In this document: positions 13,640 through 62,684 of the stretch, one piece after another | How positions within the stretch are numbered: position 1 is the stretch's first letter | How the letters are laid out: each line of letters opens with the position of its first letter | Assembly: GCF_964355755.1 (NCBI RefSeq) | Contig: NC_092677.1 | Location: forward strand, 14,406,601 to 14,470,600 | Length of the DNA stretch: 64,000 nucleotides | Direction: 5' to 3' | DNA from: Antedon mediterranea | Taxonomy: Eukaryota > Echinodermata > Crinoidea > Comatulida > Antedonidae | Position numbers and translations under genes: made by a program | Notes under the pieces: generated by a model | What the model was told of the DNA's origin: nothing | The model's input: only the letters and a program-made list of their open reading frames with translations | Databases searched by the model: none

Positions 13640-14290
13640 GAAAAGCCGCCATTTTGGATTTCAAAATGGCGGACCCCAAATTTTCACTTTTCAGGTATAT
13701 CTCTGCTAAAAAGGCACCTAGAGTTCTGATTTTAGGTGCAAATTATATGGTAGTGGGGTCACCAAACATATTGGTATAACTAAGATTTTGATTGCATGGC
13801 GGCCATGTTTGATTTCAAAATGGCGGACCCCAAATTTTCACTTTTCAGGTATATCTCTGCTAAAAAGGCACCTAGAGTTCTGATTTTAGGTGCAAATTAT
13901 ATGGTAGTGGGGTCACCAAACATATTGGTATAACTAACATTTTGATTGCATGGCGGCCATGTTGGATTTCAAAATGGCGGACTTCAAATTTTCACTTTTC
14001 AGGTATATCTCTGCTAAAAAGGCACCTAGAGTTCTGATTTTAGGTGCAAATTATATGGTAATGGGGTCACCAAACATATTAGTATAACTAACATTTTGAT
14101 TGCATGGTGGCCATCTTGGATTTCAAAATGGCGGACCCCAAATTTTCACTTTTCATGTATATCTCTGCTAAAAAGGTACACAGAGTTCTGATTTTAGGTG
14201 CAAATTATATGGTAATGGGTCACCAAACATATTGGTATAACGTCTTTGATTGCATTGCCACCGGCGGCCATTTTGAACGTAGCTCAAACT
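13640..14290 (+). repeat. 154-bp tandem repeats, left arm (four units)
   Basis: GATTTCAAAATGGCGG recurs at about 13657, 13811, 13965 and 14119, a 154-base period. Each unit holds CTCTGCTAAAAAGGCACC, TTTTAGGTGCAAATTATATG and GGGGTCACCAAACATATT. CAAAATGGCGG and the opposed GGCGGCCAT in each unit resemble YY1 sites. The plus-strand frame at 14104-14502 is a by-product of the repeat. Confidence 0.9.
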
Positions 14291-16399: not shown

Positions 16400-17200
16400 G
16401 GGTTGAGCTACATTCAAAATGGCCGCCATGTAATCAATGACGTTTTACTAATATGTTTGTTGACCTCAATACTATAATTATTATACTTTGTACCTAAAAT
16501 TATAACTGTAGTTTCCGTACTGAAACATTTTGAGTTCGCCATTTTGAAATTCAAAATGACCGCCATGCAATAAAAATGTCAGTTAAATACCAATATGTTT
16601 GGTGACCCCATTAACATATAATTTGCACCTAAAATCAAAACTCTAGGTGCCTTTTTAGCAGAGATATACCTGAAAAATGGAAATTTGAAATCCGCCATTT
16701 TGAAATCCAACATGGCCGCCATGGAATCAAAATGTTAGTTATACCAGTATGTTTGGTGACCCCACTACCATATAATTTGCACCTAAAATCAAAACTCTAG
16801 GTGCCTTTTTAGCAGAGATATACCTGAAAAATGGAAATTTGAAATCCGCCATTTTGAAATCCAACATGGCCGCCATGGAATCAAAATGTTAGTTATACCA
16901 GTATGTTTGGTGACCCCACTACCATATAATTTGCACCTAAAATCAGAACTTTAGGTGCCTCTTTAGCAGAGAAATACCTAAAAAGTGAAAATTTGAAGTC
17001 CGCCATTTTGAAATCCAAAATGGCTGCCATGCAATTAAAATGTTAGTTATACCAATATGTTTGGTGACCCCATTACCATATAATTTGCACCTAAATTCAG
17101 AACTCTAGGTGCCTATTTAGCAGAGATATACCTGAAAAGTGAACAATTTGGGTCCGCCATTTTGAAATCCAAAATGGCGGCTTTCCCCTGACCAAATTTT
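16400..17200 (-). repeat. 154-bp tandem repeats, right arm (five units)
   Basis: CCGCCATTTTGAAATCC or close variants recur at about 16540, 16695, 16848, 17000 and 17155. They are reverse complements of the left-arm units. The paired CCGCCATTTTG/GGCCGCCATG motifs in each unit face each other across about ten bases. Confidence 0.88.
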
Positions 17201-33649: not shown

Positions 33650-34945
33650 CCAAGATTCGATAGTACAGTGTAAACGAGATATAAAAATTCGGCAATACCG
33701 TACGTAACTTATTATTGCAATACTGTATAAAGATTCGATGTAAATGAGATATAAAGATTCGGCAATACCGTACGTAAATTAATGCAATACTGTAAAGATT
33801 CGATGTAAATTAATGAGATATAAATATTCGGCAATACCGTACGTAACTTATTATTGCAATACTGTATAAAGATTCGATGTAAATGAGATATAAAGATTCG
33901 GCAATACCGTACGTAAATTATTAATGCAATACTGTAAAGATTCGATGTAAATGAGATATAAATATTCGGCAATACCGTACGTAAATTATTATTGCAATAC
34001 TGTATAAAGATTCGATGTAAATGAGATATAAAGATTCAGCAATACCGTACATGAATTATTAATGCAATACTGTATAAAGATTTGATGTAAATTAGATATA
34101 AATATTCGGCAATACCGTACGTAAATTATTATTGCAATACTGTATAAAGATTTGATGTAAATGAGATATAAAGATTCGGCAATACCGTACGTAAATTATT
34201 AATGCAATACTGTAAAGATTCGATGTAAATGAGATATAAATATTCGGCAATACCGTACGTAAATTATTATTGCAATACTGTATAAAGATTCGATGTAAAT
34301 GAGATATAAAGATTCGGCAATACCGTACATGAATTATTAATGCAATACTGTATAAAGATTTGATGTAAATTAGATATAAATATTCGGCAATACCGTACGT
34401 AAATTATTATTGCAATACTGTATAAAGATTTGATGTAAATGAGATATAAAGATTCGGCAATACCGTACGTAAATTATTAATGCAGTACTGTAAAAAGATT
34501 CGATAGTATGTAAATGAGATATAAATATTCGGCAAAACCGTACGTAAATTATTAATGCAATACTGTATAAAGACTCGATAGTATGTAAATGAGATATAAA
34601 GATTCGGCAATACCTTAATAGTACGTAAATTATTATTGCAATACTGTAAAAAGATTCTATGAGATACAAGGATTCAGCAATACCGTACGTAAATTATTAA
34701 TGCAATACTGTATAAGGATTCGATAGTAAATGAGATATAAATGTTCGGCAATACCGTACGTAAATTATTATATTGCAATACTGTAAAAAGATTCGATAGT
34801 ATGTAAATGAGATATAAAGATTCGGCAATACCGTACGTAAATTATTATTGCAATACTGTATGAAGATTCGATAGTATGTAAATGAGATATAAATATTCGC
34901 CAATACCGTACGTAAATTATTAATGCAATACTGTATAAAGATTCG
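33650..34945. repeat. Satellite, ~69-bp units in alternating pairs
   Basis: About 18 units share GCAATACTGTA, GATTCGATGTAAATGAGATA and CGGCAATACCGTACGTAAAT. Units alternate between ATAAAGATTCGGC and ATAAATATTCGGC forms, giving a two-unit repeat of about 138 bases in the left two-thirds; the right third has diverged units with GATAGTATG. Frames here are by-products. It splits the right arm of the 8.5-kb element. Confidence 0.9.
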
Positions 34946-36040
34946 ATAGGAGAGTGCTCAAGAAACGTCGGGTCAAGAGGATAAAATAAACAAATAAATA
35001 AATAGTACGTAATAAATGAGACATAGAGGTTCAATAGTATGTAGATTATGATGCAAACGTAAATTATTAATGATTCGATAATATATAATGTAAATATATT
35101 TAGTTAGTTATTAATATTAAAATACAAATAAAATATACATTAATTTATCCGCAGGCAAACTTAATTATTATAGAAATATAAAGATTCGATAGTACATGAT
35201 TTGGCTTATATTTATTGGTTTGACCATACACACAGCTGTAACTCAACTCACCATAGGCCATGGCGTTGACAACGACAATCAAAGATTAAAGCGCACATGG
35301 CGTTCCATACAAATGACGATATTAAACTGGCGGCCGCTTTGGTTGGCGGCCGCTTCGACCATACTCCGACTGGGATAGCCTAACTAAAACAGGATTAGCC
35401 TAGGCTAGGCCTAGAGGCTAGAGAGACTTAAATAATTATACTAATTAGGCCTAGGCCTCCTACTAGCTAGGCCTAGGTAGCCTCGAAGTCTGAAGAGAAA
35501 GCAAATTAGTATTAACTAATAATACTACTGTATTACTTCTACTCGCGAAATAAACTACGTATGTACGTCGAGTACCCAACAAAATCACCTATTATGGACA
35601 AAACAATGGATGGCGCACTACTCCAATAAACTCGCCTATTGTGGACAAAAAGTCGCCTATTTTGGACAGCCAATTATGAAAGTCACCTATTATGGACAAA
35701 CAACAGCGCCCTCTAGTCCCTATTATGGACAGAAAGTCCCCTATTATGGACAGAAAAGTAACCTATTATGGACAGATTTCACCAACCCTATTGAAATATC
35801 TTTAGTACGCGTATACGATTCATCGCCGACAAAATCGGCAAAGTTGAACATGGTTGAACTTTCCGCCGATTTGACTGCGATGAATCGGGGGAGACCTCCC
35901 CGATGCGCGTCGGCGACATCTGCGCGTGTAGCGATTTTAATGGAAACCAGGCTTAACCACCTACCGTAACCACTCGGCCATTTGACTCGCTTGATAGAGG
36001 GCGCATTTTTGTTTATTTGTGTGAGGAGAACATTCGTCTA

Positions 36041-36791: not shown

Positions 36792-38162
36792 TTATGATGT
36801 ATGCAACCTACTTGTTGAATTTCCATGGCGTTGGACATGCACATCATTAAGAAACATAAGGGATTTGTCAATTGTAGGAATCTGGAATACAAATTCATTG
36901 TCTAATTCGAGTCGTCCCATTGATTTATACAGATCATGTGACTTGGCAGAATCTGGAACTAAAGACGATGCCAGATTGGTAAAACGCGGGTCTTTTGCAG
37001 GGTTTAGTTGAGATACTGCTTCCTTCGTTGCCCGATTACGTAAAATAGCATTTCTGGAGACTGGTCTAGGTGTTAGTCCCTTTTCTTTTGTTTTCTTCAA
37101 TGCTATGAGCTGTGATATTATTGTTTTTGTCGTCCGTGATTCGCTTCTGGTGTTTAGTAATTCCGCATCTGGTTCGGTTTTTTTCGGGGTATCCACTCGA
37201 ATTCCATTTGATATATTATTTTTTTTATTTGTCTTTGAATTGCCTTTATTTTGTTCTCGAGATACTTTCAGAGATGAGTTATGATTGATATAATTGTCAT
37301 CCCACTCTGTATCAGAATTACATTCAATAGAGAAGTCATTTATCGAGTCATCTGTATTATCGGTACAAGAAAATTCAATTTTTGGAACGGGAATATGCTG
37401 AATTCTGTTTACACTTTCCTTTGATACAACGTTCTTTGGTTCAACATGTTTTCGCACAAAATGAGATTTTCCGTTTTCCGTTTTTCTGGATTTGTATTGA
37501 TAGCCGTTTACACCGTTTGCTAATGTTGTGACGTCATCTTGTAGCCGTGGATCCGGGTTACCTGCAATAAAACGAGTTACTTCAGCAACCTCGGGATCAA
37601 TTGGTTCTTTCTTTTCACATTTTAAAGGACTCATGTAATGTGGAATAGTTCTGCTCTTTCCATTTACGTTTTGAATTTTACTTTTTGTAACTTCGCTAGG
37701 CTTACTACTTTCACATTCATCCTCTTGTAGTTTAGCTAGTTGACGCTGAGCAAAGCCTCTTTTCTTCTGCATCATAAACTTACGTTTCTGCTCTTTCTGT
37801 CCGTCAATGCCTTCGTAGCTTCTCGAAAGTCGCCTACTTTCGTAATCATTTGATACTAAAATGCATTTTCCAACGGCGCTACTTTTTGTGTTCTCCGCCG
37901 TCATCCTACCTTTGTTACGATCCATAATAATTCTTCTTGTCGTAGGCCTAGCATCTTTAACGCTAACAGTGACATCAGACTCTGATATCTGTTTATTGGT
38001 TATACGCAGTGTTACATTACCTATTTTTGAAAGTCTTAATTTCTTTGCTATTGATATTGCCGTTTGTTTGTCTATGTACTTTGCCTCTGGTTCGTAGGCG
38101 GGTTGTTTCAACGTCGATGGCTTTTTAGTTTTACTTGGACTTAAATATGAATTAAGATTCAT
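36792..38162 (-). CDS. Orphan single-exon ORF, 456 codons
   Basis: This is the longest uninterrupted non-mobile frame in the window. I do not recognise a family. The protein is hydrophilic and mostly disordered in look, rich in Lys, Ser and Asn. The first 60 residues are a basic segment containing SPSKTKKPS and IAKKLRLSKIG. Residues about 135-155 are strongly basic (KEQKRKFMMQKKRGFAQRQL), and an acidic patch lies around DDSINDFSIE. The end (ELDNEFVFQIPTIDKSLMF) is less polar and may be the conserved part. No signal peptide or membrane segment is seen. A GTAGGT near the 3' end (about 36815) could be a splice donor, so the last residues are uncertain. A nuclear or cytoskeletal adaptor is a guess; length and even composition argue it is real. 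Confidence 0.6.
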   Translation of the reverse strand: MNLNSYLSPSKTKKPSTLKQPAYEPEAKYIDKQTAISIAKKLRLSKIGNVTLRITNKQISESDVTVSVKDARPTTRRIIMDRNKGRMTAENTKSSAVGKCILVSNDYESRRLSRSYEGIDGQKEQKRKFMMQKKRGFAQRQLAKLQEDECESSKPSEVTKSKIQNVNGKSRTIPHYMSPLKCEKKEPIDPEVAEVTRFIAGNPDPRLQDDVTTLANGVNGYQYKSRKTENGKSHFVRKHVEPKNVVSKESVNRIQHIPVPKIEFSCTDNTDDSINDFSIECNSDTEWDDNYINHNSSLKVSREQNKGNSKTNKKNNISNGIRVDTPKKTEPDAELLNTRSESRTTKTIISQLIALKKTKEKGLTPRPVSRNAILRNRATKEAVSQLNPAKDPRFTNLASSLVPDSAKSHDLYKSMGRLELDNEFVFQIPTIDKSLMFLNDVHVQRHGNSTSRLHTS

Positions 38163-38460
38163 GTCTATTTTGAATTTGCTGTATATTCAGTCACGCTTAG
38201 TATGGCCGTGCTTATCGGTATTTATTGATCGATTCACAATATCTAAATGAGGAGAACAAAAAATATATAATAATATTATTTTTCCGTAAATATATTCTGG
38301 TTAAGTTTTAGTTTAAAATTGTTTATGATGCAATATACGTGTTGTAAGAAGCGGGAACTAACTATTTTATAAAACTCATAGGCAGTATAAAACAATAATT
38401 TGAGTGTAATAGTTTTTAGCGTAACGTTAATAATTACGCATAACAAAATCAAACTATCAT

Positions 38461-41270: not shown

Positions 41271-44200
41271 TCAAGCTAGAAGGTCACCGATCCTTTGAAA
41301 AAAAGAAGGAACGGTTGATTGGTTGTCTTCCTCGTCATTCTCATCGTCTGATTCTGGAACATAATCAAGCTGGGCGTGCCCAACTATCCTCGTACGACGT
41401 TGGTATGCTTGTGTAGGTCTAGGCCTTATCTGTACACCAGCTTGCTTTAAACCTACGGATGTTAGCTTCTCTTGAAATTCAGTAACATTTTTGTTCCTGA
41501 TTTCCCGCTTCTTGACAATTTTTGACTTTTCTTTGCCGTTAATACTTCCATTTATCACGTCAAGCGAATCACCAAATTCAAGTACGGTATCAAAGATCTC
41601 ATCACATGTATCGACGCAGTTTGAAATAGCCCCCTCAACGTTGCGAAATAGTTCAATCATTTCATTCCTATCATGAGAAGTATAATTCCAATCAAATTTA
41701 AAATCGAATTTATAAATTACAAATTATTAATAGGTTAGGCTAAGCAATTTTCTGAAATCATGCCGTTTGTAGCTTTACAAAATAACCAAAACAATATTTT
41801 ATTTGTATTTACCTAAACTCGGTTACATCAGACCGTATATCAATGACGTCGGTCTGTGTTACGGCATCGTCTGTGTCAAAGGCAGACGACCGCTTGTCAG
41901 AAATGAAGCGGGCAACTAAATTATCCATTACTTCCTAGAAGCACAAACATATTGAAATGTTATGAAATCTATTTATTAATAATAATCAATGTTATGAATG
42001 TATGTAGTGTATATAAAATATCATACCTGATATTCCTGGTTCTTCTTCTTTATTTTGTCCTTGTATTTCTGTTGATAAATAGTTTATTTCTCAATATAGT
42101 GGTAAGATTGTATGTGTATATACTAGTAGAGGGACTATTAGATGGGTCACAGTTTGAGAGGTTTAGGTTGAGAGAAATTTACCCCAGTGGTTTTGCAGGG
42201 TGAAAATACATGTTGCAATGTTCGTCATGATAGTCTCGATTATACACGTCGACTTTACTTAATATTCGTATTGTAAAAAAACATTTTGGTACAAACGTTA
42301 TGTTTATACACATGGTCTTCTCAATGTTGTAAAGGTAATGGTACTTGCTTATAATTTTAAATGTTTAAACTAAAATGTAATAATGCATACCTTTTTCATC
42401 TCCTTCTCAGCCTTATGACAGAATGCTCTGTTTAAAATGCCTCTGCATAATTCAAATATATCTCTTGGAGGCGGAAGAATGTTAAATGGAATCGGGAGCG
42501 CGATTTGTTTGTTGAAATAAGAAATCCATATGGCTGATCGACTAAACTTCCATTCGATATCAGAATTATCCTATAAAACAAATATCATAAGTTCGAAATG
42601 GCGTTATGAATTACCGTAGTTTAAAACAGAGACTAAGAATGGTATTTTATAGGCCTATTGGCCAAATATAATTTTGCCAAGTATTATTACTTGCTTTGTT
42701 TGTATAAGCACGATAGCGCCTACAATGTTGAAGTTATCATTCTGAAATTCTCAAAATGTATGTGTACATAGGTATATACATACATGCCTATTATTGATAT
42801 ATTGGTCACGTCACAAAAGCTTATTATATTAAAATTTCACTTTCCTGTATCGTCCATATGAGATATAGCACGCCCTCTGTATTCTTTTAACATTAATATC
42901 AAGTGGTGAGCCTTCTATCTCCGAATATAGGTTTCCCTAATATATTAACTACTTCACTAAGTTTGTGAGTGCTTTCACGTTATCACAGCACATCATTTAA
43001 CTGTAGTATTACATATTTGTTCCCACTTGGAAGCAATCCAATAGTAGGCGCAATGGGAACCAAACCTTAATCCGTGACCGCTGTCAGCATATTGGTAAAC
43101 TCTCATTCTCGCTCTGTCGGATAGAATGTTGTACATGATTTTTAAAGGCCAATTTACACGAGCGGTAAGAGTAAGCGGTAAACGGGGAAAATAGAGAATC
43201 CGGTATGTTATGACGGAGTGGACGGGTGGTTGAGCTAAAACCCGTCCAAGATAGACTCCGTATTCTATGGGACACGCTACGCGCTTTTTCGTTTACCGTT
43301 ACCAATTATCTGTAAAATGGCCTTAATGTCTTTATAACCTTAGCGTGCGAATATTTGTTTACCTGTATTTGACTGAAAGTGTTACTCATCATGGCTATAA
43401 GTACATTAAGCAGAATGATAACTGCCATCACAATATACACTGCGTACATAAGTGTACCCACACCTTCCGTTATGGAATGATCTGTACCTGTATCTAAAAT
43501 GCCTAGGTCGCCTAATCCAACCAGTCCCCAAAATAAGGTTTCCATCCCTTCTGCAAAGCTAAGAACAGTTGTTACTATGTTATTCATTATTATTACAGTA
43601 TCACAAATTAGTGGATAGCTTATAATTACTAGTATGTTTGTTATTATAACTTGTCACGTTTTAACAAAATGTGTAGAATTTTAAATTGTACAAGAAAATT
43701 TATCAGAAATATATACGGGGAATCCCTGCAGTGGCAGTAGCAGAAGCAGTCGTAGAAGCAGCCGAGCAATAGTAGTAGTAGGCGCAGTGGTAGCAGCAGT
43801 GGTAGCAGCAGTAGTAGCATCATTCGCATTAGCAGCCACATTAGCAGCCGCATTATCAGCAGTATTATCAGCAGTATTGGCAGAAGTAGCATTAGCAGTA
43901 GCCACAACAGTAGCTGAATCAGTAGGTACAGCAGCAGCAGCAAACGTAGAAGTAACATAAGAAGTAGTAGTGATAGTGTTATAAATAAGCAGAATCTATG
44001 GAAGAAGTATTTTAGTAACCTTAATAGTATAGTTAAAACAATTACCCGGCAAATGGATTTTGGAAACATCCTGTTTGCTCGCCTCCATCTTCAATGCATT
44101 TTAGAATTGTAGCTGAGGCATATGGGTAATAAAGCTGTGTCATACCCATTGCAAACGCCCACCATATGACGATGAAAATAACCATGAATCTGGCAATATC

Positions 44201-47200
44201 CGAAGTCATTCTCTCTAATGATATCTCGAGAGGACCTATGGAACGACTACTAGTAATCAGCTGCAGAAGTCTAAGAAAACTGCAGATATTACCAATAGCA
44301 AATGCAGCTTCGGCAATCAGGTTAGGGTCATCATTTTTCCATTCACGTCTGCTTAGGAAAAAACTATAGCTTGAGAAATATTGAGATATAAAATCAAATT
44401 CTTCACTATTAAAAGAGTAAGAATTTTCTGATGAACTGGTATAATCACTTAAATTTCGAATTTCAATTGTATCTGTAACCTCCAGATAACCACTTTGGAA
44501 TTCCGATGTCAGTAAACTGTCAATTGTCTCTTTTAGTTTGCCGTCGTCCACTGATTGTCCACCGCAGTCACTTATAAGAAGCCGTAAAGTCTGAATCGCG
44601 AGTTGGTATTCCTCAGACTGATCGCAGGTTTTGCTGTCGTTTTTCAAAACAGTTCCATTGCCGTATGCAACGTAACGACCATTTTCGTATAGATAACAAT
44701 CTTTGCCGTTGTAGTTATAATAACCGCCATCGATTACACACTGATTTAATTCACAGACTCTTCTTTCGAGATTTACTAAACAACATGCAAACAAACTTCC
44801 ATACAGTATGTAGTTATTGTAGCAGCTTGGTATTTCACGACATACCTCTCCATCCCATGCTGTATTATCAGCACACAATGTGGCATCTGATACGTCAGTC
44901 CATGTATAAGTAGTACTATTGAAATACCGCTGTACACATTTTTCTCCATCAAATGTTGAGCCATCATTGCACTGCCTGTAAGATAATGTATCGGTAAAAT
45001 GTATAGGTATTGGTTAGTTTCACGCTTTACATAATATAAAACATAAACAAAATGATACCGTTTACCTATTCAAACAATCGCCGTAAAAGCTTAAATCGGG
45101 ATCACAGCATATACTGAATTCATGATGTGTGTAGTAGGCTGCATAGCACGGTGGACCATGTTCAAAGAAATTGCATCTTTCCTGATTGGCAACATATATA
45201 TCGCCTTCTCGTTGTATCTGAAATTTAATTTTAAAATATACATAAACATTATTTATTCGTTGTCCGTAAAAGCCGGAACTTGTATTTGTAATTTGATGAT
45301 GAATTTAAAACGAGAGCATTAAACAAAGGAGCATTATAAAAACCAGAAGAAAAGGTATGTTCTAAAATTGCTGCTAAATATACAGTATTTAGCATTGTGT
45401 GATATTTTTGTTACTTACAATCCAAAATAAAGTTAGAGCACTCATTACACTGTAAATGAGAACAGTTTTTAATTTTTACCTCAAAGTATGCAGCAACTTT
45501 TAATAAAATCCACACTGAATAAAGAAGAATTTGCGCCGTCTCTATAAGGTTCCATTTGTCTTTCATGTACTTTTTAAACCCACATTCCCATATTTGTTTG
45601 CTTTCCTGTACTGTCATTCCTAAATGCAATGGGCAGTTTACAGTATTTTTTATTATTTCGTTCATAAGATTGATAAGATGTTTATTACATTACAATTACA
45701 TTGTAATTACATTGTAGTTATAGTACAATTGCATTGTAATTATAGTACAATTGCATTACAATTACAATTAAAATGACATTTAAAAAGTCACCGTGCAATT
45801 ACATTACATGTACAATTACATTACAGGTACAATTACATTCCAATAACATTGTAATTACATTATAATTAAATTACAAATTGTATTAAATTACATAAACAAC
45901 TACATTACAGGTACAATTACATTACAATAACATTGTAATAACATTGTAATTACAATTACATTACAATTAAATTACAGTGACATTCCAAGTCACAGTACAA
46001 TTAAATTACAATTACATTGTATTTACATTATTATTAGCATTACAATGCAATGTTACATCAAAATATGAAATACATTACTAACCTATGACCCAAATGTATA
46101 ACACGATTGATGTTACAGAAGGTAACCTGCCTCGTTCTCTGTCGTAGAACTGTTCTATTTCGAGTTGTTCTGCCTTTGTAAACGAGAAGTTGGTTGCAGG
46201 CGCTGGGTCCTGGTTATATAATGTGCTTATAATCAGTAAAGAAAGAAACGTAAAGTACGAAAATGTTTCAAATAAGAATCTCACATGTCTGAAAGGCAAT
46301 TAAAACAATATGATTATTATTATTTTGAGATAGTCTTAAAATTTAAACAAATTAAATTATAGTTATTTTGGAAAAAGTTACGAAAACAATAAATATCACT
46401 AACGGTGTATGGACAAATTTCTTAATCCATCCAAACGGAAATAACAGGTATAATACAGAAAATATCGGAAAGCTGCATCCAATGAGTATACTTCCAACAG
46501 CATCACGTGCTACTGAGTAATCTCGCCAACCAATAGGTAGTCCTTCGTACCAACGTTTTGTCATTATTAGTTGGCTGTTGGGGTGTGCAACAAACTGAAA
46601 GACATGTAAATGATAAGCTTATAATGAATACACCTATGTTTATACGTCCTTTCACAAATGATTTCATAAATTGAAAACGTAAACTTTGATCTCACCGCTT
46701 TCTGTTTGTGTTCAATCGCCCTTTCTAGTTTCAGCAATTGGTTGTCAGAGACTGTTGTGTAGTCTTCTCCCCAGACTTTCAAATCGTGCGTCAAGACAGT
46801 TTCGAGTTCATTCGATCCACGTAACTGGTCAAGAAGACTACAACAGAAATTTGAAACCTGTAAATAACGATATGCAAGGCTATAATATTCATTTATTATC
46901 GAACATTAAGTTATTACCATTAATGTCATTACAATGTCAACGTGAACATAGAAACAGTGCAGACCTCGACCAAATTGGTCACCTAGAGGTGTGTGATGAG
47001 TGCAGCAGGTCACCTAGAGGTGTGTGATGAGTGCAGCAGGTCACCTAGAGGTGTATGATGAGTGCAGCAGCTGCTTACCTGATTCTTAAGTTCTTCATAC
47101 TCGGCTCTAAATTCATACTCCCTGTCTTGAAGTTTCTCTAGACGACGGCAGATGGAAAATGCTGCGTCTATGGGATCTTTACTAGTGAGAGCAATGTAGA

Positions 47201-50200: not shown

Positions 50201-51023
50201 CATAATTTAAGACGATACTGAGAACGTACCAATTAGCCATATTATCCCATCTCATTTATATTAATAGCGAAACCAACGCAGTTGAAAATCTTATCCCAAA
50301 AACAAGATTACGTAATCTCATCTAAGCCTACCTGCAACTATTATCAGTGAATATATATAATTCATTAGCCCTAATGGACATTTTCCTACCTGCATTTGAA
50401 TTCTTTACCGCAAGTTGAAGCGCAGTATCGCCGTTCTTATCTCGGCAGCTGACATCGAAGGACTCCTGGTGCAGTAACGCATATGAGACTGCTTCTATGT
50501 CTCCCTTTTCTGCTGCCCGCAAAAAAACCTCTTCGAGGGTACCGTCAGTTGGCATTTCTTGTTCATTTTCTTTCTTATGCGTTTTATAGGATATACGCCT
50601 CAACGTATGTAATTGAATGTCTTTACTATAATGGGAACTATAATTGGAACTATTTTAAATTAACAGTATAAATGTTGAATTAAAAATGCACAAAAATACG
50701 AGTTATATTAGGACTTCATTTACCTCACCACTAAATCATTAAATTATGAATCTTAAATGTTTTTAATATACTATAATTATGATATCATTAATATTATTCA
50801 TTTTTTTAACATATATTAGGCCTATACATATTTCGTTTCATACTTATACTCTCCCAATCCCACTTGCATGACTTCGGTGTATGATATACATGTCACCTAC
50901 GTAGGCTACAGTTTAAAATATCATATTGATATAATTCAATTTTAATGTAATTTTTAAAATACCGATAATGATGATACATTATGAGTAAACTTACCTTTGG
51001 CCCTTTCGATTATATTCAGTCAT
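41271..51023 (-). CDS. TRPC-like cation channel with large extracellular Cys-rich insertion, 15 exons
   Basis: A plasma-membrane non-selective or Ca2+-permeable channel subunit of the TRPC type. Exons in transcript order: 50995-51023, 50390-50598, 49634-49752, 48210-48317, 47079-47324, 46696-46857, 46404-46594, 46083-46288, 45480-45619, 45066-45217, 44046-44975, 43363-43558, 42391-42570, 41813-41934, 41271-41667. All phases agree, giving about 1,128 residues. Ankyrin repeats and the TRPC linker (IALTSKDPIDAAF, YEELKNQ) are in exons 2-6. S1 is about 356-380, S2 412-427, S3 446-470, S4 738-760, S5 780-803, pore 836-850 (LFWGLVGLGDL), S6 863-890, TRP box IEWKFSR about 900. Residues 471-735 replace the usual short S3-S4 loop. 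The acidic C-tail ends IGDLLA. The first exon is inferred from a phase match; without it the protein would start at ATG 50555. Confidence 0.88.
43146..43322. mobile_element. MITE with AAGGCCAATTTACA ends, in TRPC intron
   Basis: The ends AAGGCCAATTTACACGAGCGG and, reverse complemented, AAGGCCATTTTACAG are inverted, with GCGGTAA/TTACCGT inside. It lies between exons 43363-43558 and 42391-42570. A lone left end is at 1151. The 73-codon minus frame here (43084-43305) is from the element. Confidence 0.65.
43363..43558 (-). CDS. TRPC-like channel pore and S6 exon
   Basis: Encodes the pore helix and filter (METLFWGLVGLGDLG), the turret after it, S6 (MYAVYIVMAVIILLNVLIAM) and the start of the cytoplasmic gate. 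LFW and NVLIAMMSN are TRPC hallmarks. Phase 2 at the start, phase 0 at the end. The Asp in GLGDL aligns with the acidic filter residue of fly TRP rather than the Asn common in vertebrate TRPC. Confidence 0.9.
43726..43960. repeat. AGC/AGT trinucleotide tract in TRPC intron
   Basis: About 230 bases of AGCAGTAGTAGC-like triplets lie in the intron between the Cys-rich exon and the pore exon. Minus-strand frames read as long Leu or Ala/Thr runs and are not coding: real exons with correct splice phase lie on both sides. Confidence 0.8.
44046..44975 (-). CDS. TRPC-like channel exon: Cys-rich ectodomain, S4, S5
   Basis: A single 930-base exon. Roughly the first 215 residues are extracellular, with 12 Cys in short loops (QCNDGSTFDGEKC, CADNTAWDGEVC, LFACC, ELNQC) and several N-glycosylation sequons (NST, NGT, NDS). 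Then comes DPNLIAEAAFAIGNI, the TRPC S4 entry, and GPLEISLERM, the S4-S5 linker. Acceptor TCTTACAG and donor GG|GTAAT fit. I do not recognise the ectodomain as any named fold. Confidence 0.88.
45066..45217 (-). CDS. TRPC-like channel exon: first part of ectodomain
   Basis: 152 bases between AAATTTCAG and AG|GTAAAC, joined in frame to the S3 exon (ending AAYFE) and the Cys-rich exon. It adds five Cys (RCNFF, PPCY, ICCD, DCL), for 17 in the insertion. Confidence 0.85.
45670..46060. repeat. ATTACA/TGTAAT low-complexity tract in TRPC intron
   Basis: Nearly 400 bases built from ACATTACAATTACATTGTAA and its complement, so much of it can fold on itself. It lies in the intron between exons 46083-46288 and 45480-45619, leaving about 20 bases of ordinary intron before the upstream exon. 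Confidence 0.8.
46977..47069. repeat. Three 31-bp tandem units beside a TRPC splice donor
   Basis: GGTCACCTAGAGGTGTGTGA begins units at 46977, 47008 and 47039. The last unit ends nine bases from the donor of exon 47079-47324 (minus strand), so the start of that intron is made of the repeat. Confidence 0.85.
48689..49242. mobile_element. MITE, TTAAAGATGTATTGTCC family, 554-bp form
   Basis: Ends TTAAAGATGTATTGTCCC and GGGACAATACATCTTTAA are perfect inverted repeats. It lies in the TRPC intron between exons 49634-49752 and 48210-48317, and is twice the length of the other copies, with extra interior around TCGATCGCGACGA. Confidence 0.85.
49880..50040 (+). repeat. Retroelement-like tail in TRPC intron
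   Basis: A moderately GC-rich stretch with GTGCACGTTAAAGAACTTGG and GGCGCTGCACTGTTGGCTGC, similar in style to 48395-48540 and 26850-26960/27309-27420. These look like copies of one SINE or LINE 3' family, but I cannot name it. Confidence 0.35.
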
Positions 51024-56010: not shown

Positions 56011-56254
56011 ATAGTAATATAATAATATAGGGCGTTGTGATTTCACTTAACCAAGGTATAGTTTTTTACAGCTCCTGAAATATAGTTAAAATTTGACGTT
56101 TTCTAAATCTCGATTGATTTCTAAGTGAGTATAATACAGTGAATAAGTCAAGTTAAACCAAGTCTTTGTTAAGGTGGAAGTTTTTACCTGAAAGAAATAC
56201 TAGGAAAAAACAATTTGTATATCGTTCACGTCTAAGCCCGGTGAAAGCCAAACA

Positions 56255-57580
56255 ATGGCGTCAAAAACCCATAGAAACGGGACTAACAAAGGAATGTACA
56301 GTGCTGCACAGGCTGACGGTGACGAAATCAGCAGGATGAACGGGCAAACAGTAAACAAAGAACGTAGTGTAGTGAAGCCAATCTTTTTGAAGGCTGATCA
56401 AATACCAACAGGAAAAAGCTTTTTCAAAGATGAAGACCTATGTATAGCCCTACTAAAAATAATTGCTGCAGAAAGTATAATCGGTGTTCAAAAAATACGG
56501 AACCTATGGCGAATTTATCTAAATAATAGAAATGATAGAGTGAAACTAATTACGAATGGACTAAACATTAGGAATTGTAATATTACAATTCATGATAAAA
56601 ATCCTTATTTGGCATACAACAACATGGAAACAACGAGAATAGTCATAAAGGATATACCATTATCGGTTGCTGACGTAGAGATTGCTAGCAAGTTGAAAGC
56701 GCTAGGATGCAAACCAATAGGAGATGTTACAAGGCTAAAAATAAGGGTTAATGGTCAATTAACCAGCTGGCTAAACGGTGACAGAGCTGTCGTTGTAGAA
56801 AAGCTAAAATCGCAAATACCAAGACAGATAATAATAAATGGTTTTAGAGCACGGGCTTTTCATGACGGTCAGGAAGTGAAATGCAACAAATGTACAAAGA
56901 CTGGGCATTTAGCTTTTCAATGCAAAGCTGATATAATCTGTTTCAAGTGTCATTTACCAGGGCATACTAGGGACAGATGTAATGTTGAAGCGCATAATGT
57001 ATCATCATCTGGTTCACCTGGTGCATACATTAATAAAGTTTGGGAATCGGTTTTTAACTTTGAAAACCCAAAAAATAATAATGCTAACGATAACCACTAC
57101 GGGAAAAGAGCTACGGTACAATCTGATACAGAAACACATGATGAAGTGTTTAGTATTGATGGAAGTAGTGAATCATCAGATGATGAAAATGCGCAGAAAG
57201 AAACAAGTGTGATCACTATAGAACAACACACAAACCAAAATGAGCAGGAAGATGATGACAGAGAGGAGCAGAGGGAAGAGCAGGAAGTGGACGAAAGAGA
57301 GGAGGAGGAAGTTGAAGAAGGAGAGGAACAAGAAGTACCGGGAAGAAAGTACCAGAAAGCTGAAGAAAGAGAGGAGCAGGAAGTTGGGGAAAGAGAGGAG
57401 CATGAACAGAAGAAGGTAACTGACTACTTTGAAAAAAGTATGCAAAAAAGTAAAAGTGTTAGCACAAACAAGAAAGCAGCGAGAGATCTGAAGGAACAGT
57501 CCGGAAATGAAGGCAGGACAGAAGAAAAAACAAAGAGTATTGAAAAAAGAAGTTTAAGAAAGAGAAACAAAAACAAGTAA
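56255..57580 (+). CDS. LINE ORF1 protein, zinc-knuckle RNA-binding
   Basis: 441 residues, intact. It presumably binds the element RNA. Residues about 60-200 form a folded N-terminal region of the kind found in Tx1-group ORF1. Two CCHC knuckles follow: CNKCTKTGHLAFQC (about 210-223) and CFKCHLPGHTRDRC (about 229-242), both C-x2-C-x4-H-x4-C. Residues about 330-395 are Glu/Arg repeats (REEQEVDEREEEE), and the end is Lys/Arg-rich. ORF2 starts 65 bases after the stop. Minus and +1 frames over the acidic repeat are shadows. Confidence 0.88.
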   Translation: MASKTHRNGTNKGMYSAAQADGDEISRMNGQTVNKERSVVKPIFLKADQIPTGKSFFKDEDLCIALLKIIAAESIIGVQKIRNLWRIYLNNRNDRVKLITNGLNIRNCNITIHDKNPYLAYNNMETTRIVIKDIPLSVADVEIASKLKALGCKPIGDVTRLKIRVNGQLTSWLNGDRAVVVEKLKSQIPRQIIINGFRARAFHDGQEVKCNKCTKTGHLAFQCKADIICFKCHLPGHTRDRCNVEAHNVSSSGSPGAYINKVWESVFNFENPKNNNANDNHYGKRATVQSDTETHDEVFSIDGSSESSDDENAQKETSVITIEQHTNQNEQEDDDREEQREEQEVDEREEEEVEEGEEQEVPGRKYQKAEEREEQEVGEREEHEQKKVTDYFEKSMQKSKSVSTNKKAARDLKEQSGNEGRTEEKTKSIEKRSLRKRNKNK

Positions 57581-57645
57581 TTTAATCTTAATAATATGTA
57601 TTCTAAATATTGTAATTTCCCTAGGAAGCTCTTTACTCTAATCTT

Positions 57646-60600
57646 ATGAATTTACATTGTATAACACTAAACGTTAGAGGAGCTAGAAATATAAATAAGC
57701 AACATAAGCTATTCCAATGGGTAAAAGATCAAAAAGCGGATATATGTCTGCTTCAGGAAACCCATCTAACAAATGAGATTATTAATAAATCAAACTTTGT
57801 TTGGGAAGGTGAAGCGATCCATAGTATAGGTAATTCACATAGTAGAGGAGTGTCGATACTATTACGAAAAGGTCTTGAATGCAAAATTGTTAAAAAGTTA
57901 ACTGATATTGATGGAAGATATATATTTCTTAATCTAATGATAAATGAAAAGGAATTGGACATTATAAATATTTATGCTCCTAATGAAAGCAAAAATAGAA
58001 GTGCATTCTTTAGGACCATACACAAATGTTACAATGACTTTGATGGAGGGAAGGGTAATTCTATCATTCTAGGTGGAGATCTGAATTGCATCATGAATAG
58101 TGACATTGACCAAAAAGGTAGCGCAAATAGGTCTGATAAATCTGTTTTTACGATTAAAAACCTAATGAAAAATTTAAATTTAAATGATATTTGGAGATCC
58201 AAAAACATGAATAAGCGACAATTTACGTGGCGTAAGAGATTTAACAACATTTTCCGTAGGCTGGATTACTGGTTAATATCAGAAGATCTCTTTTTAAATG
58301 GAGATGTTTTAGCCTGTGACATTCGTCCAGCTATTCTCACAGATCACCAGGCGGTATCAATTAAAATAGATTTGCATGAAAAAAAACGCGGTCCTGGTTT
58401 ATGGATGTTCAACAATAGCTTTCTGAAAGATGAAACATTTACAAAATTAGTAATTAAAATAATTGATGTTTCAATACTAAAAAATAATAGAGAACCTGTA
58501 AGTGCAAGTTTGTTATGGGAGCTTGTAAAAACAAAAATAAAAGAATTTTCAATTGCATACGGAAAACAAAAAAATAAAAACCAGAATAAAAAGAAAGAAA
58601 AATTACAAAAACAAATAAAAAACTTAAATGAAACAATTATGAATACTCAAAATTGTGATATAACCATTGAAAATAAAATTGAAAACAAAAAAATAGAGCT
58701 TGAAAACATTTATAATGTAGAAGCAAAAGGCGCGCAAATTAGGTCCAGAGTAAAATGGATAGAGGAAGGCGAGTGGAATACAAAATACTTTCTTGGGTTA
58801 GAAAGATCCAAAAGTAAAAAGAAACACATAAAAAGTTTAATTACTAAAGATGGGAGCTTAGCAACGAGCCCAATTGATATTTTAAAGGAACAAATACAAC
58901 ATTTCGAAGGTTTATACGCAAAAAATGTTATAAACCCTGGAAAAATTAATAAATACCTTTGTAATTCTATTATAAACAAGCTTTCAGAAATAGAAAAAGA
59001 AAATTGTGAAGGTTACGTCACTATTGATGAATGTAAAAAGGCCATTTCAATGATGGAAAAAAATAAAACACCTGGATCGGATGGTCTAAGTGTTGAATTT
59101 TATGTGTTCTTTTGGAATAATATTAAACATTTAATTTGCGATGCGTTAAATGAAAGTTATAATTCTCAAGAATTATCCTTTTCGCAAAAACGAGGTGTAA
59201 TCACCCTTTTGTTCAAGGATGGAGAAAGAGAAAATTTGAATAATTGGCGTCCCATTACCCTATTAAACACCGATTACAAAATTCTTGCACATGTATTAAG
59301 TAACAGACTTAAAATGGTTATTAAATCAATAGTAAGTTCAGACCAAAAAGGTTATATAAAAGGCCGTTTCGCTGGTGAAAACATTCGGTTAATAGAAGAC
59401 CTGCTTTATTATACAGAGTGTAATGATATCGAAGGGGCAATAATTACCGTAGATTTTAAGAAGGCTTTTGACTCTATTAGTAGAGATTTTATGTTCAATG
59501 TTCTAGAAAAGTTTAACTTTGGAATGTTCTTTTGTAACTGGGTAAAAGTATTATACAATAACGTTGAATGTGTCACAGTTAACAATGGTTGGGTTTCAAA
59601 CAATTTAAAAATGGAAAGAGGTATTAGACAAGGTTGTCCTCTATCTGCTCTGTTATTTATTTTAGTGGTTGAAGTAATGGCATCTAGAATAAGAAACAAA
59701 GATGACTATAAGGGTATTAAACTTCCAAATAATGAAAATAACATAGAAGCTAGAATAAGCCAATTAGCCGATGATACTGTTTTGTATGTTGGTAATGACA
59801 AAAGTATTAAACCAGCAGTCAGTGTAATTGAACGTTTTTGTGAAGTATCTGGAATGACACTAAATAAAAAAAAAACCAATGCTTTTTGGATTGGTAAATG
59901 GAAGAACAGAATAGATAGACCTTTAGAATTAAATTGGGTAAAACACCCGATCAAAATTTTAGGCATATATGTAGGGTATAATACAGAAGAATGTACCAGA
60001 AAAAACTGGGATGTTAAATTAATAGAGCTAGAAAAGACTTTAAAACAATGGAATGCTAGAAATCTCTCAATTTTTGGTAGAATAATAATCCTGAAAAGTC
60101 TTGCACTATCTAAATTAACATATGCTGCAAATATCACTGATGTTCCAAAATATGTATATACACAAGTTACAAATCTAATATATAATTTTATTTGGAACAA
60201 TAAAAGGGAAAAGATAAAAAGAAAAACTCTAATTGGTGATGTTGAGATGGGAGGCATTCAAATTCCTGATTTTACTCTTCATGTTAACGCAATCATGTGT
60301 GGCTGGTTAAAAAGAATTATGAATGATGATGGTGCTAAATGGAAAAATATTCCAATGTATTATATTAAAAAAATATGTGATGTTAATGTTTTACTTAATA
60401 TGTCATGTTATAACATTATTGATGTTAATTCTGATAAAATTCCACTGTTTTACAAAAATATGATAAAAGCCTACATAAATTATAACAGAATCTCTAAAAA
60501 AAACCCTGAAACTTATAACGATATAATGAATGAGCAACTGTGGGGAAACCACTACGTTAAACTAAAAAAAAAACGCTTTTCTACAAGCATTGGATTGACA

Positions 60601-61406
60601 GTGGCATTATCAGTATTAAAGACATTGTTAATAAGAACACTTTTTTAACATCGAACGAAATACTGGTGAAACTACAATGTAAAACAAACTGGTTAAATGA
60701 GTATTTGTGCATTATTAAGGCAATACCAATTCAATGGAAACGTATTATTAAGGAGGTAGATATTTTCAATTGTGATGATAATGATGAAGTAGTTGGGACT
60801 AAGTATGAGATTAATACTACCAAACTAATATACTCATGGTTTGTGAAAGAATATTTCATTATTCCAATGTCACAACTAAAATGGGAAGAGTACTTCAATG
60901 ATAACAACATTGATTGGAAAACTTCTTGGTTACGGAAAGTATGTAAAATGAAAGATAAGAAACTAGCACAATTCAATTATAAGATGTTACATAGAATACT
61001 GCCTACCAACAAACGGCTGTATCAGTGGAAAGTTAAGGAAACACAAACGTGTGACAAATGTGGAGAAATTGAAAATGAAAATCATTTGTTTTTTAGTTGT
61101 AGATTTATTCAGAAATATTGGAGGAAAATGCTTAGTATCTTTGTGAGTTTAAATCACAATAATATATCATTTAAACAATTAATACTAGGAACGGGAGATA
61201 AGCTAATAGATTATATTTACACTTTTGCAGCATTTACTATTTATAGAATAAAAATGTTATCTGCACTAAATAAGCCAGTGGGTAAATCTTTATGGAATTC
61301 ATTTAAAAGCAATATGTTATATAACATTGAATGTGAAACATATAACAATAAAGAAACAAGTATAGAAAAATGGGTAGCTTTAAGAAATAAGATTATGATA
61401 ATATAA
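57646..61406 (+). CDS. LINE ORF2: endonuclease and reverse transcriptase, one frameshift
   Basis: Apurinic-type endonuclease comes first (LNVRGARN, LLQETHL, IYAPNE, GGDLNCI, RRLDYWL, LTDHQAV; residues 1 to about 235). Reverse transcriptase follows (KTPGSDGLSVEF, WRPITLLNTDYKI, DFKKAFDSI, RQGCPLSALLF, QLADDTVLYV with the catalytic DD near residue 708). The 1,000-codon frame stops at 60648. The protein continues in another frame from about 60575 (WIDSGIISIKDI onward, ATG at 60666) to 61406, with a C-terminal zinc motif CDKCGEIENENHLFFSC. The break maps to an A10 run at 60564-60573. Apart from that shift no stop interrupts it, so the copy is young or the shift is a sequencing slip. Tx1 group is my best call from the LADD box and the C-terminal motif. 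Confidence 0.88.
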
Positions 61407-61932: not shown

Positions 61933-62684
61933 GAGTCACGCTATACTTCTATGATGGAAGAGGAGGTAGATCAAGATACCCTTCGTCAACTGTACTTAAA
62001 GGGAGCCGAAAGTGGTGATCTGGATGCTGTGGAATTCGCTCTTTCTCATTGTGACTTTGATAAAAACTGTACAAACCCAGATGGTAAAAATGCACTAGCA
62101 GTGGCAATTAAATCAAACAACATAGGTAAATAGGTGATATATTTTGAAATGTTTCAAACCTTTCTCTAAGTTCTTGCATAAATTGTTATATTGTGTAGAT
62201 CAATTAATGATAATTTAATGCAAATAAACGACAAATTAAGGTATATTCCGCTTTTAATAATTTCACGGTACTGCCATTTTCTATATTATGAATTAAAATT
62301 CTCTATTCCAAGATGAGCGTCCACCACCCAAATGAAGGGTCATTTGCCTCGACAGCCCCGTTCAACTTTTTTGTTTGTGATTGTCGAAAGATTGAAAATA
62401 AAAATAAATAAATAAAATAAGTATCCGAGTAATTACCGATACAATTTTTAAAATTTGTTTAAACTAAACATTCCTCTGAAAGCTCATCTCTTAAATTATA
62501 AAGGTGGTAAAAATGTTTATTTTGTCAACAATGGTTTCTAAAATCAATCCCCTAATTCTTTTCAGAAATAGTAAAAGTTCTTTTACAAAACGATGTGAAC
62601 GTTGGGGACGCACTCTTGCGAGCGGTGGATATGCAGAACGTTAAAGTAGTTGACATTTTACTCGAATATGCTCGATCACCACAG
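61933..62684 (+). CDS. Second TRPC-like channel, ankyrin-region exons (partial, runs off the window)
   Basis: Exons 61933-62125 and 62566-62684 are a paralogue of the minus-strand channel. The first follows a strong acceptor (CTCGATTTTTAG) and includes ATG 61951 (MMEEEVDQDTLRQLYLKGAE); the frame is open upstream to the acceptor in phase 0. The split Glu codon (phase 1) and the 119-base length of the next exon match exons 2-3 of the other gene. Protein matches include AVDMQNVKVVDILLEYARS against AIDMQNMKTVDIILNFAKS. The next exon should encode a TPLVLAA-like segment; I do not find it before 64000. Confidence 0.8.
62310..62425 (+). repeat. Retroelement 3' tail in TRPC intron
   Basis: CCACCACCCAAATGAAGGGT ... 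GATTGTCGAAAGATTGAAAA runs into (ATAAA)n. This is the form of a truncated LINE or SINE 3' end between the two ankyrin-region exons. Confidence 0.45.

Follow-up and report, generated by a model that had tools for sequence, protein, structure and literature searches.

Control of TRPC channels normally comes from within the cell, through PLC, lipids, and calcium. The locus described here, from the crinoid Antedon mediterranea, raises the question of whether such a channel can also carry a large domain on its outer face and, if so, how that domain arose and what it might do; the locus lies in a 64,000-nucleotide stretch of contig NC_092677.1 (positions 14,406,601 to 14,470,600; hereafter the window, to which coordinates refer unless a chromosome label is given). 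A sequence-only reading had claimed that two exons place about 265 residues, with 17 Cys and several N-glycosylation sequons, in frame between S3 and S4 of a TRPC-like channel, and had taken their exon boundary as consistent with exon capture. The analysis below bears out a TRPC scaffold whose S3–S4 ectodomain is large, rich in Cys, and potentially glycosylated; it does not support exon capture.

The gene consists of 15 coding exons (50555–41271, minus strand) that form one open frame of 1118 residues, with canonical GT-AG ends at every intron and compatible phases throughout. Pfam searches detect N-terminal ankyrin repeats (Ank_2, E = 1.3e-11), followed by TRP_2 (36.5 bits against a cut-off of 27) and a six-transmembrane ion transport domain (Ion_trans, E = 1.2e-19). 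Among solved structures in PDB, TRPC4, TRPC5, and TRP-gamma score best (E about 1e-131 to 1e-127; zebrafish TRPC4, E = 1e-131); the top matches are all TRPC or TRP-gamma, with TRPM and NompC far behind. The exon at 43363–43558 (minus strand), placed by the gene model and the TRPC4 alignment, encodes the pore helix with its LFW motif (LFWGL) and S6 (ILLNVLIAMM); LFWGL and the TRP box (EWKFSR) align with those of TRPC4. Because pore, S6, and TRP box are all intact, the gene looks like that of a functional TRPC channel and not a pseudogene. Ankyrin repeats, TRP_2, six transmembrane helices, LFW, and EWKF are common to the window protein and TRPC4/TRPC5, TRPC1, TRPC3/6, and Drosophila TRP-gamma, but TRPC4-type channels lack the extra residues, about 253 in number, that the window protein has between S3 and S4.

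These residues lie between AAYFE, the end of S3, and DPNLIAEA, the start of S4, and they amount to 266 amino acids with 17 Cys and 4 N-glycosylation sequons, close to what had been claimed; in the present model they are residues 447–712, not the 471–735 given earlier. The S3 exon (exon 8, 45480–45619, minus strand) ends in LLKVAAYFE at position 45480 with a phase-0 junction that is homologous in paralogs. Exon 9 (45066–45217, minus strand; 152 bp) encodes residues 447–496, ends two bases into codon 497, and includes the first half of a Cys module described below; exon 10 (44046–44975, minus strand; 930 bp) encodes the rest of the insert in its first two-thirds (44975–44330), fused, according to the gene model and the TRPC4 alignment, to S4–S5 (44329–44046). 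Both exons are flanked by AG/GT and are joined in frame to the exons at 45619–45480 and 43558–43363 (phase 0, then phase 2). In the TRPC4 alignment, residues 446 and 700 of the window protein fall on the adjacent TRPC4 residues 458|459, which gives the net insertion of about 253 residues. A short S3–S4 loop is usual in TRPC channels and not a defining feature of them; the loop has about 15 residues in TRPC4 and 18–20 in two plain TRPC paralogs of the same genome, against 266 in the window gene. From the known topology of TRPC channels, the loop should be extracellular.

The insert has the character of coding sequence. No stop interrupts its frame, against 2 and 4 stops in the two alternative frames of exon 9 and 10 and 22 in those of exon 10, and the base composition of both exons is coding-like (GC1>GC2>GC3). 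Exon 9 begins in phase 0 and ends in phase 2, and skipping the 152 bp of this asymmetric exon would shift the frame; it is therefore not an optional cassette and can neither move nor be skipped alone. Within exon 10, a polypyrimidine-rich AG near 44350 might have been what is left of the old S4 acceptor, or a splice site for a short-loop form; it was rejected since its phase does not fit exon 8.

Of the 17 Cys, 16 are arranged in two tandem 8-Cys modules of near-identical spacing, a module duplication within a single loop. Module A (C461–C531; C-x8-C-x12-CC-x9-C-x4-C-x10-C-x20-C; spacings 9,13,1,10,5,11,21) lies at 44873–45175 (minus strand) and is split by the intron 45065–44976; module B (C542–C614; C-x5-C-x12-CC-x8-C-x4-C-x13-C-x23-C; spacings 6,13,1,9,5,14,24) lies at 44624–44842 (minus strand) and has no intron inside it. 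The spacings repeat at lag 8, and a likeness as close, counted over any lag, arises in about 6 of 10,000 permutations (p about 6e-4). The residues themselves point the same way less strongly (PxCYxxY...CC...DG...G..C; p 0.016, or 0.064 when the Cys are kept in place), and the MAFFT alignment of the two modules places two Cys one residue out of register, making its identity figure unreliable. The modules are probably disulphide-bonded. They are followed by a C-terminal stalk of about 98 residues (residues 615–712; 44330–44623, minus strand) that carries the seventeenth Cys (634) and a sequon (671) and leads into S4.

No relative of this arrangement was found. The order C-C-CC-C-C resembles that of a knottin, but the insert and its pieces gave nothing meaningful against Pfam, NCBIfam, or PDB: an EGF_TEN match (0.23) is not meaningful, and matches to RNA polymerase and haemagglutinin are due to chance. 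AlphaFold2 gave a pLDDT of 31.9 for the insert alone and 42.7 for module B when module A was the sole related sequence supplied, both too low for a usable model. A search of the whole genome (354 Mb, 18 contigs) at E<=10 returned no second copy or donor of the insert, only the insert itself, and a scan of the fetched paralog loci for the Cys framework located the module in the window gene alone, where module A is split by its intron; one other match in the window is low-complexity sequence. In the literature searched, the coverage of which was incomplete, no description of long TRPC S3–S4 loops or of crinoid TRPCs was found. Elsewhere in the assembly, a precursor exon for crinotocin, the vasopressin/oxytocin-type peptide, was observed at C4:25447225 (MQECCRILLVLFALVSLSTACFWRTCPVGGKR); it has the Trp-Arg motif that is reported to be crinoid-specific (PMC9793003), which marks this as the genome of a crinoid, most likely a feather star.

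Enlargement of the S3–S4 loop is not peculiar to the window gene. The genome has 12 TRP_2 (TRPC) loci, ten of which were inspected at the sequence level together with the neighboring gene. In a tree built from conserved segments, in which two members (L030 and L032) have less than half of the columns filled, eight TRPC genes including the window gene form one clade (support 100/99), outside of which fall four more conventional TRPC genes, among them the TRPC4-like L034, and zebrafish TRPC4. The window gene pairs (98/98) with its head-to-head neighbor L024 (C8:14.471 Mb, in C8:14470000–14480000), whose exon 2 lies in the window (62562–62681, plus strand), about 12 kb from exon 1 of the window gene at 50555. 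Counted from the exon junction, S3–S4 loops have 266 residues in the window gene, 144 in L025, 106 in L028, 97 in L026, 93 in L033, 92 in L032, and 74 in L030; the exception within the clade is L024, with 16 residues, and the conventional L034 and L031 have 20 and 18. The loop of L027 is about 40 residues as estimated by eye, and the comparison was made without L029. Enlarged loops are thus present in seven of the eight clade members, which makes the finding independent of one odd gene model.

Several repetitive elements and a further open frame accompany the two TRPC genes. A LINE-type retrotransposon lies between them (56204–60648, plus strand), with an ORF1 containing zinc knuckles and an ORF2 of 1007 aa with endonuclease and reverse transcriptase, both open. 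The window also contains an open frame of 464 aa without a Pfam match (36792–38186, minus strand), two 154-bp tandem arrays (13648–14241 and 16537–17178) whose consensus units look mutually inverted, and an 18-copy array of a 70-bp unit (33669–34947).

The six enlarged-loop paralogs listed above resemble the window gene in their clade and in their enlarged loop, which the S4 exon encodes downstream of a phase-0 acceptor: in each, that exon is longer at its 5′ end by the extra residues, and the added stretch has no stop. They differ from it in having 0–2 Cys and no Cys-rich modules, and no additional exon was identified in them, although the probable S3 exon of L032 is about 3.7 kb upstream and an intermediate exon is possible in that long intron. 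Every enlarged loop has sequons. A heptad repeat is strong in L025 (coiled-coil-like) and weaker in L028, with no such signal in the window insert. Clear homology (z 12) links the loop of L026 with that of L033; most of the others cannot be aligned with one another or with the window insert. Judged from junctions and loop lengths, the window gene is the extreme member of a clade whose S3–S4 loops appear to have grown just 3′ of an ancestral intron, either by a single gain with loss in L024 or by repeated growth.

Together, the window insert and the six enlarged sister loops suggest that a part of the channel has been turned into an outward-facing sensor or tether. With moderate confidence, we favor the reading that this is a crinoid TRPC channel whose S3–S4 loop is an ectodomain, most likely an extracellular receptor or a tether that acts on gating. 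In this arrangement, the two tandem modules, probably disulphide-bonded, would sit on a stalk running into S4, and the tetramer would bear four copies on its rim, atop the voltage-sensor-like S1–S4 domains, each tied to both S3 and S4. A soluble or matrix partner binding to the ectodomain, or tension borne by it, would then shift S3 relative to S4, and this shift would bias opening of a normal TRPC pore. A sensor role for the insert is plausible; a binding role is weakened by the failure of the insert to match any known binding fold, and a function common to the clade loops is no more than possible given that the others are not Cys-rich and mostly cannot be aligned with the window insert.

Other TRP-superfamily channels offer a partial parallel. 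PKD2/PKD2L1 and TRPML also carry a large folded extracellular domain, but theirs is a polycystin/mucolipin fold located between S1 and S2, and the window insert lies between S3 and S4 and is neither by sequence. In PKD2L1, the S3–S4 linker couples to and interacts with the extracellular domain (PMC5864754), a precedent for contact between linker and ectodomain, even though the ectodomain there lies between S1 and S2. A channel of the polycystin/TRPML type was itself considered and rejected: the window protein has no polycystin/mucolipin domain between S1 and S2, the insert has no Pfam match, and the best stretch of the match to PF08016 (PKD_channel), residues 389–462, falls inside the membrane domain.

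The same features could serve structure and not sensing. A glycosylated, disulphide-rich collar might aid folding, tetramer choice, or protease protection, perhaps with the odd seventeenth Cys bridging subunits by a disulphide, while gating proceeded from inside as in ordinary TRPCs. The odd Cys count and the four sequons would fit such a collar, and the coiled-coil-like loop of L025, less clearly that of L028, would suit oligomerization. We consider it rather unlikely here, as no heptad signal is seen in the insert of the window gene itself, and the sister L024 manages without an enlarged loop.

A separate matter, compatible with either function, is whether the insert is an existing secreted domain acquired by exon capture, as the sequence-only reading had suggested from its phase-0 boundary at the S3 end. 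Exon 9 is indeed additional, not being seen in the paralogs, and the modules resemble a compact secreted Cys-rich domain. The boundary does not help to decide: the same phase-0 junction follows S3 in the short-loop L024 and the conventional L034, so the intron is ancestral and its phase is uninformative on capture. The insert is mostly an extension of the S4 exon, as in the six paralogs; no donor copy was found in the genome at E<=10, neither Pfam nor PDB has a match, and the asymmetric exon 9 is immobile and unskippable on its own. Capture is thus an improbable origin. The clade pattern is better matched by enlargement of the S4 exon on its 5′ side, beside the old intron, and then by duplication of the module and gain of a further intron.

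Alternatively, the loop might be weakly constrained and drifting: in this clade it would tolerate growth through recruited intron sequence or tandem repeats, and the domain would have no specific role. Paralog loops differ in length and are mostly unrelated in sequence, and they share as their starting point one conserved intron, which in L025 contains a minisatellite. Against drift, the pair of matching 8-Cys modules with their 16 Cys, the stop-free frame, the four sequons, and the coding-like composition all speak for a domain that is folded and under selection, and the L026 and L033 loops are mutually conserved, which together leave drift a small chance. In this exon structure, read from genomic DNA, it is very improbable that the two exons are part of a different gene or are never spliced to those of the channel, because exon 10 carries both the insert and S4–S5 in one frame, each of the four junctions has canonical ends and a fitting phase, and no alternative S4 exon is present between S3 and the pore.

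What seemed one odd channel becomes a clade of TRPC channels with enlarged S3–S4 loops. A broader view, offered tentatively, is that in a crinoid TRPC subfamily the S3–S4 loop is a fast-diversifying ectodomain that acts directly on S4 and yields ligand- or matrix-gated channels; the ectodomain might be coiled-coil-like in some members and built of tandem Cys modules in the window gene. If folded, an ectodomain set directly between S3 and S4 would give outside signals an uncommon way to the gate, and the paralogs, whose loops range from 16 to 266 residues on a shared scaffold, provide a natural series in which the origin and role of such domains can be tested.
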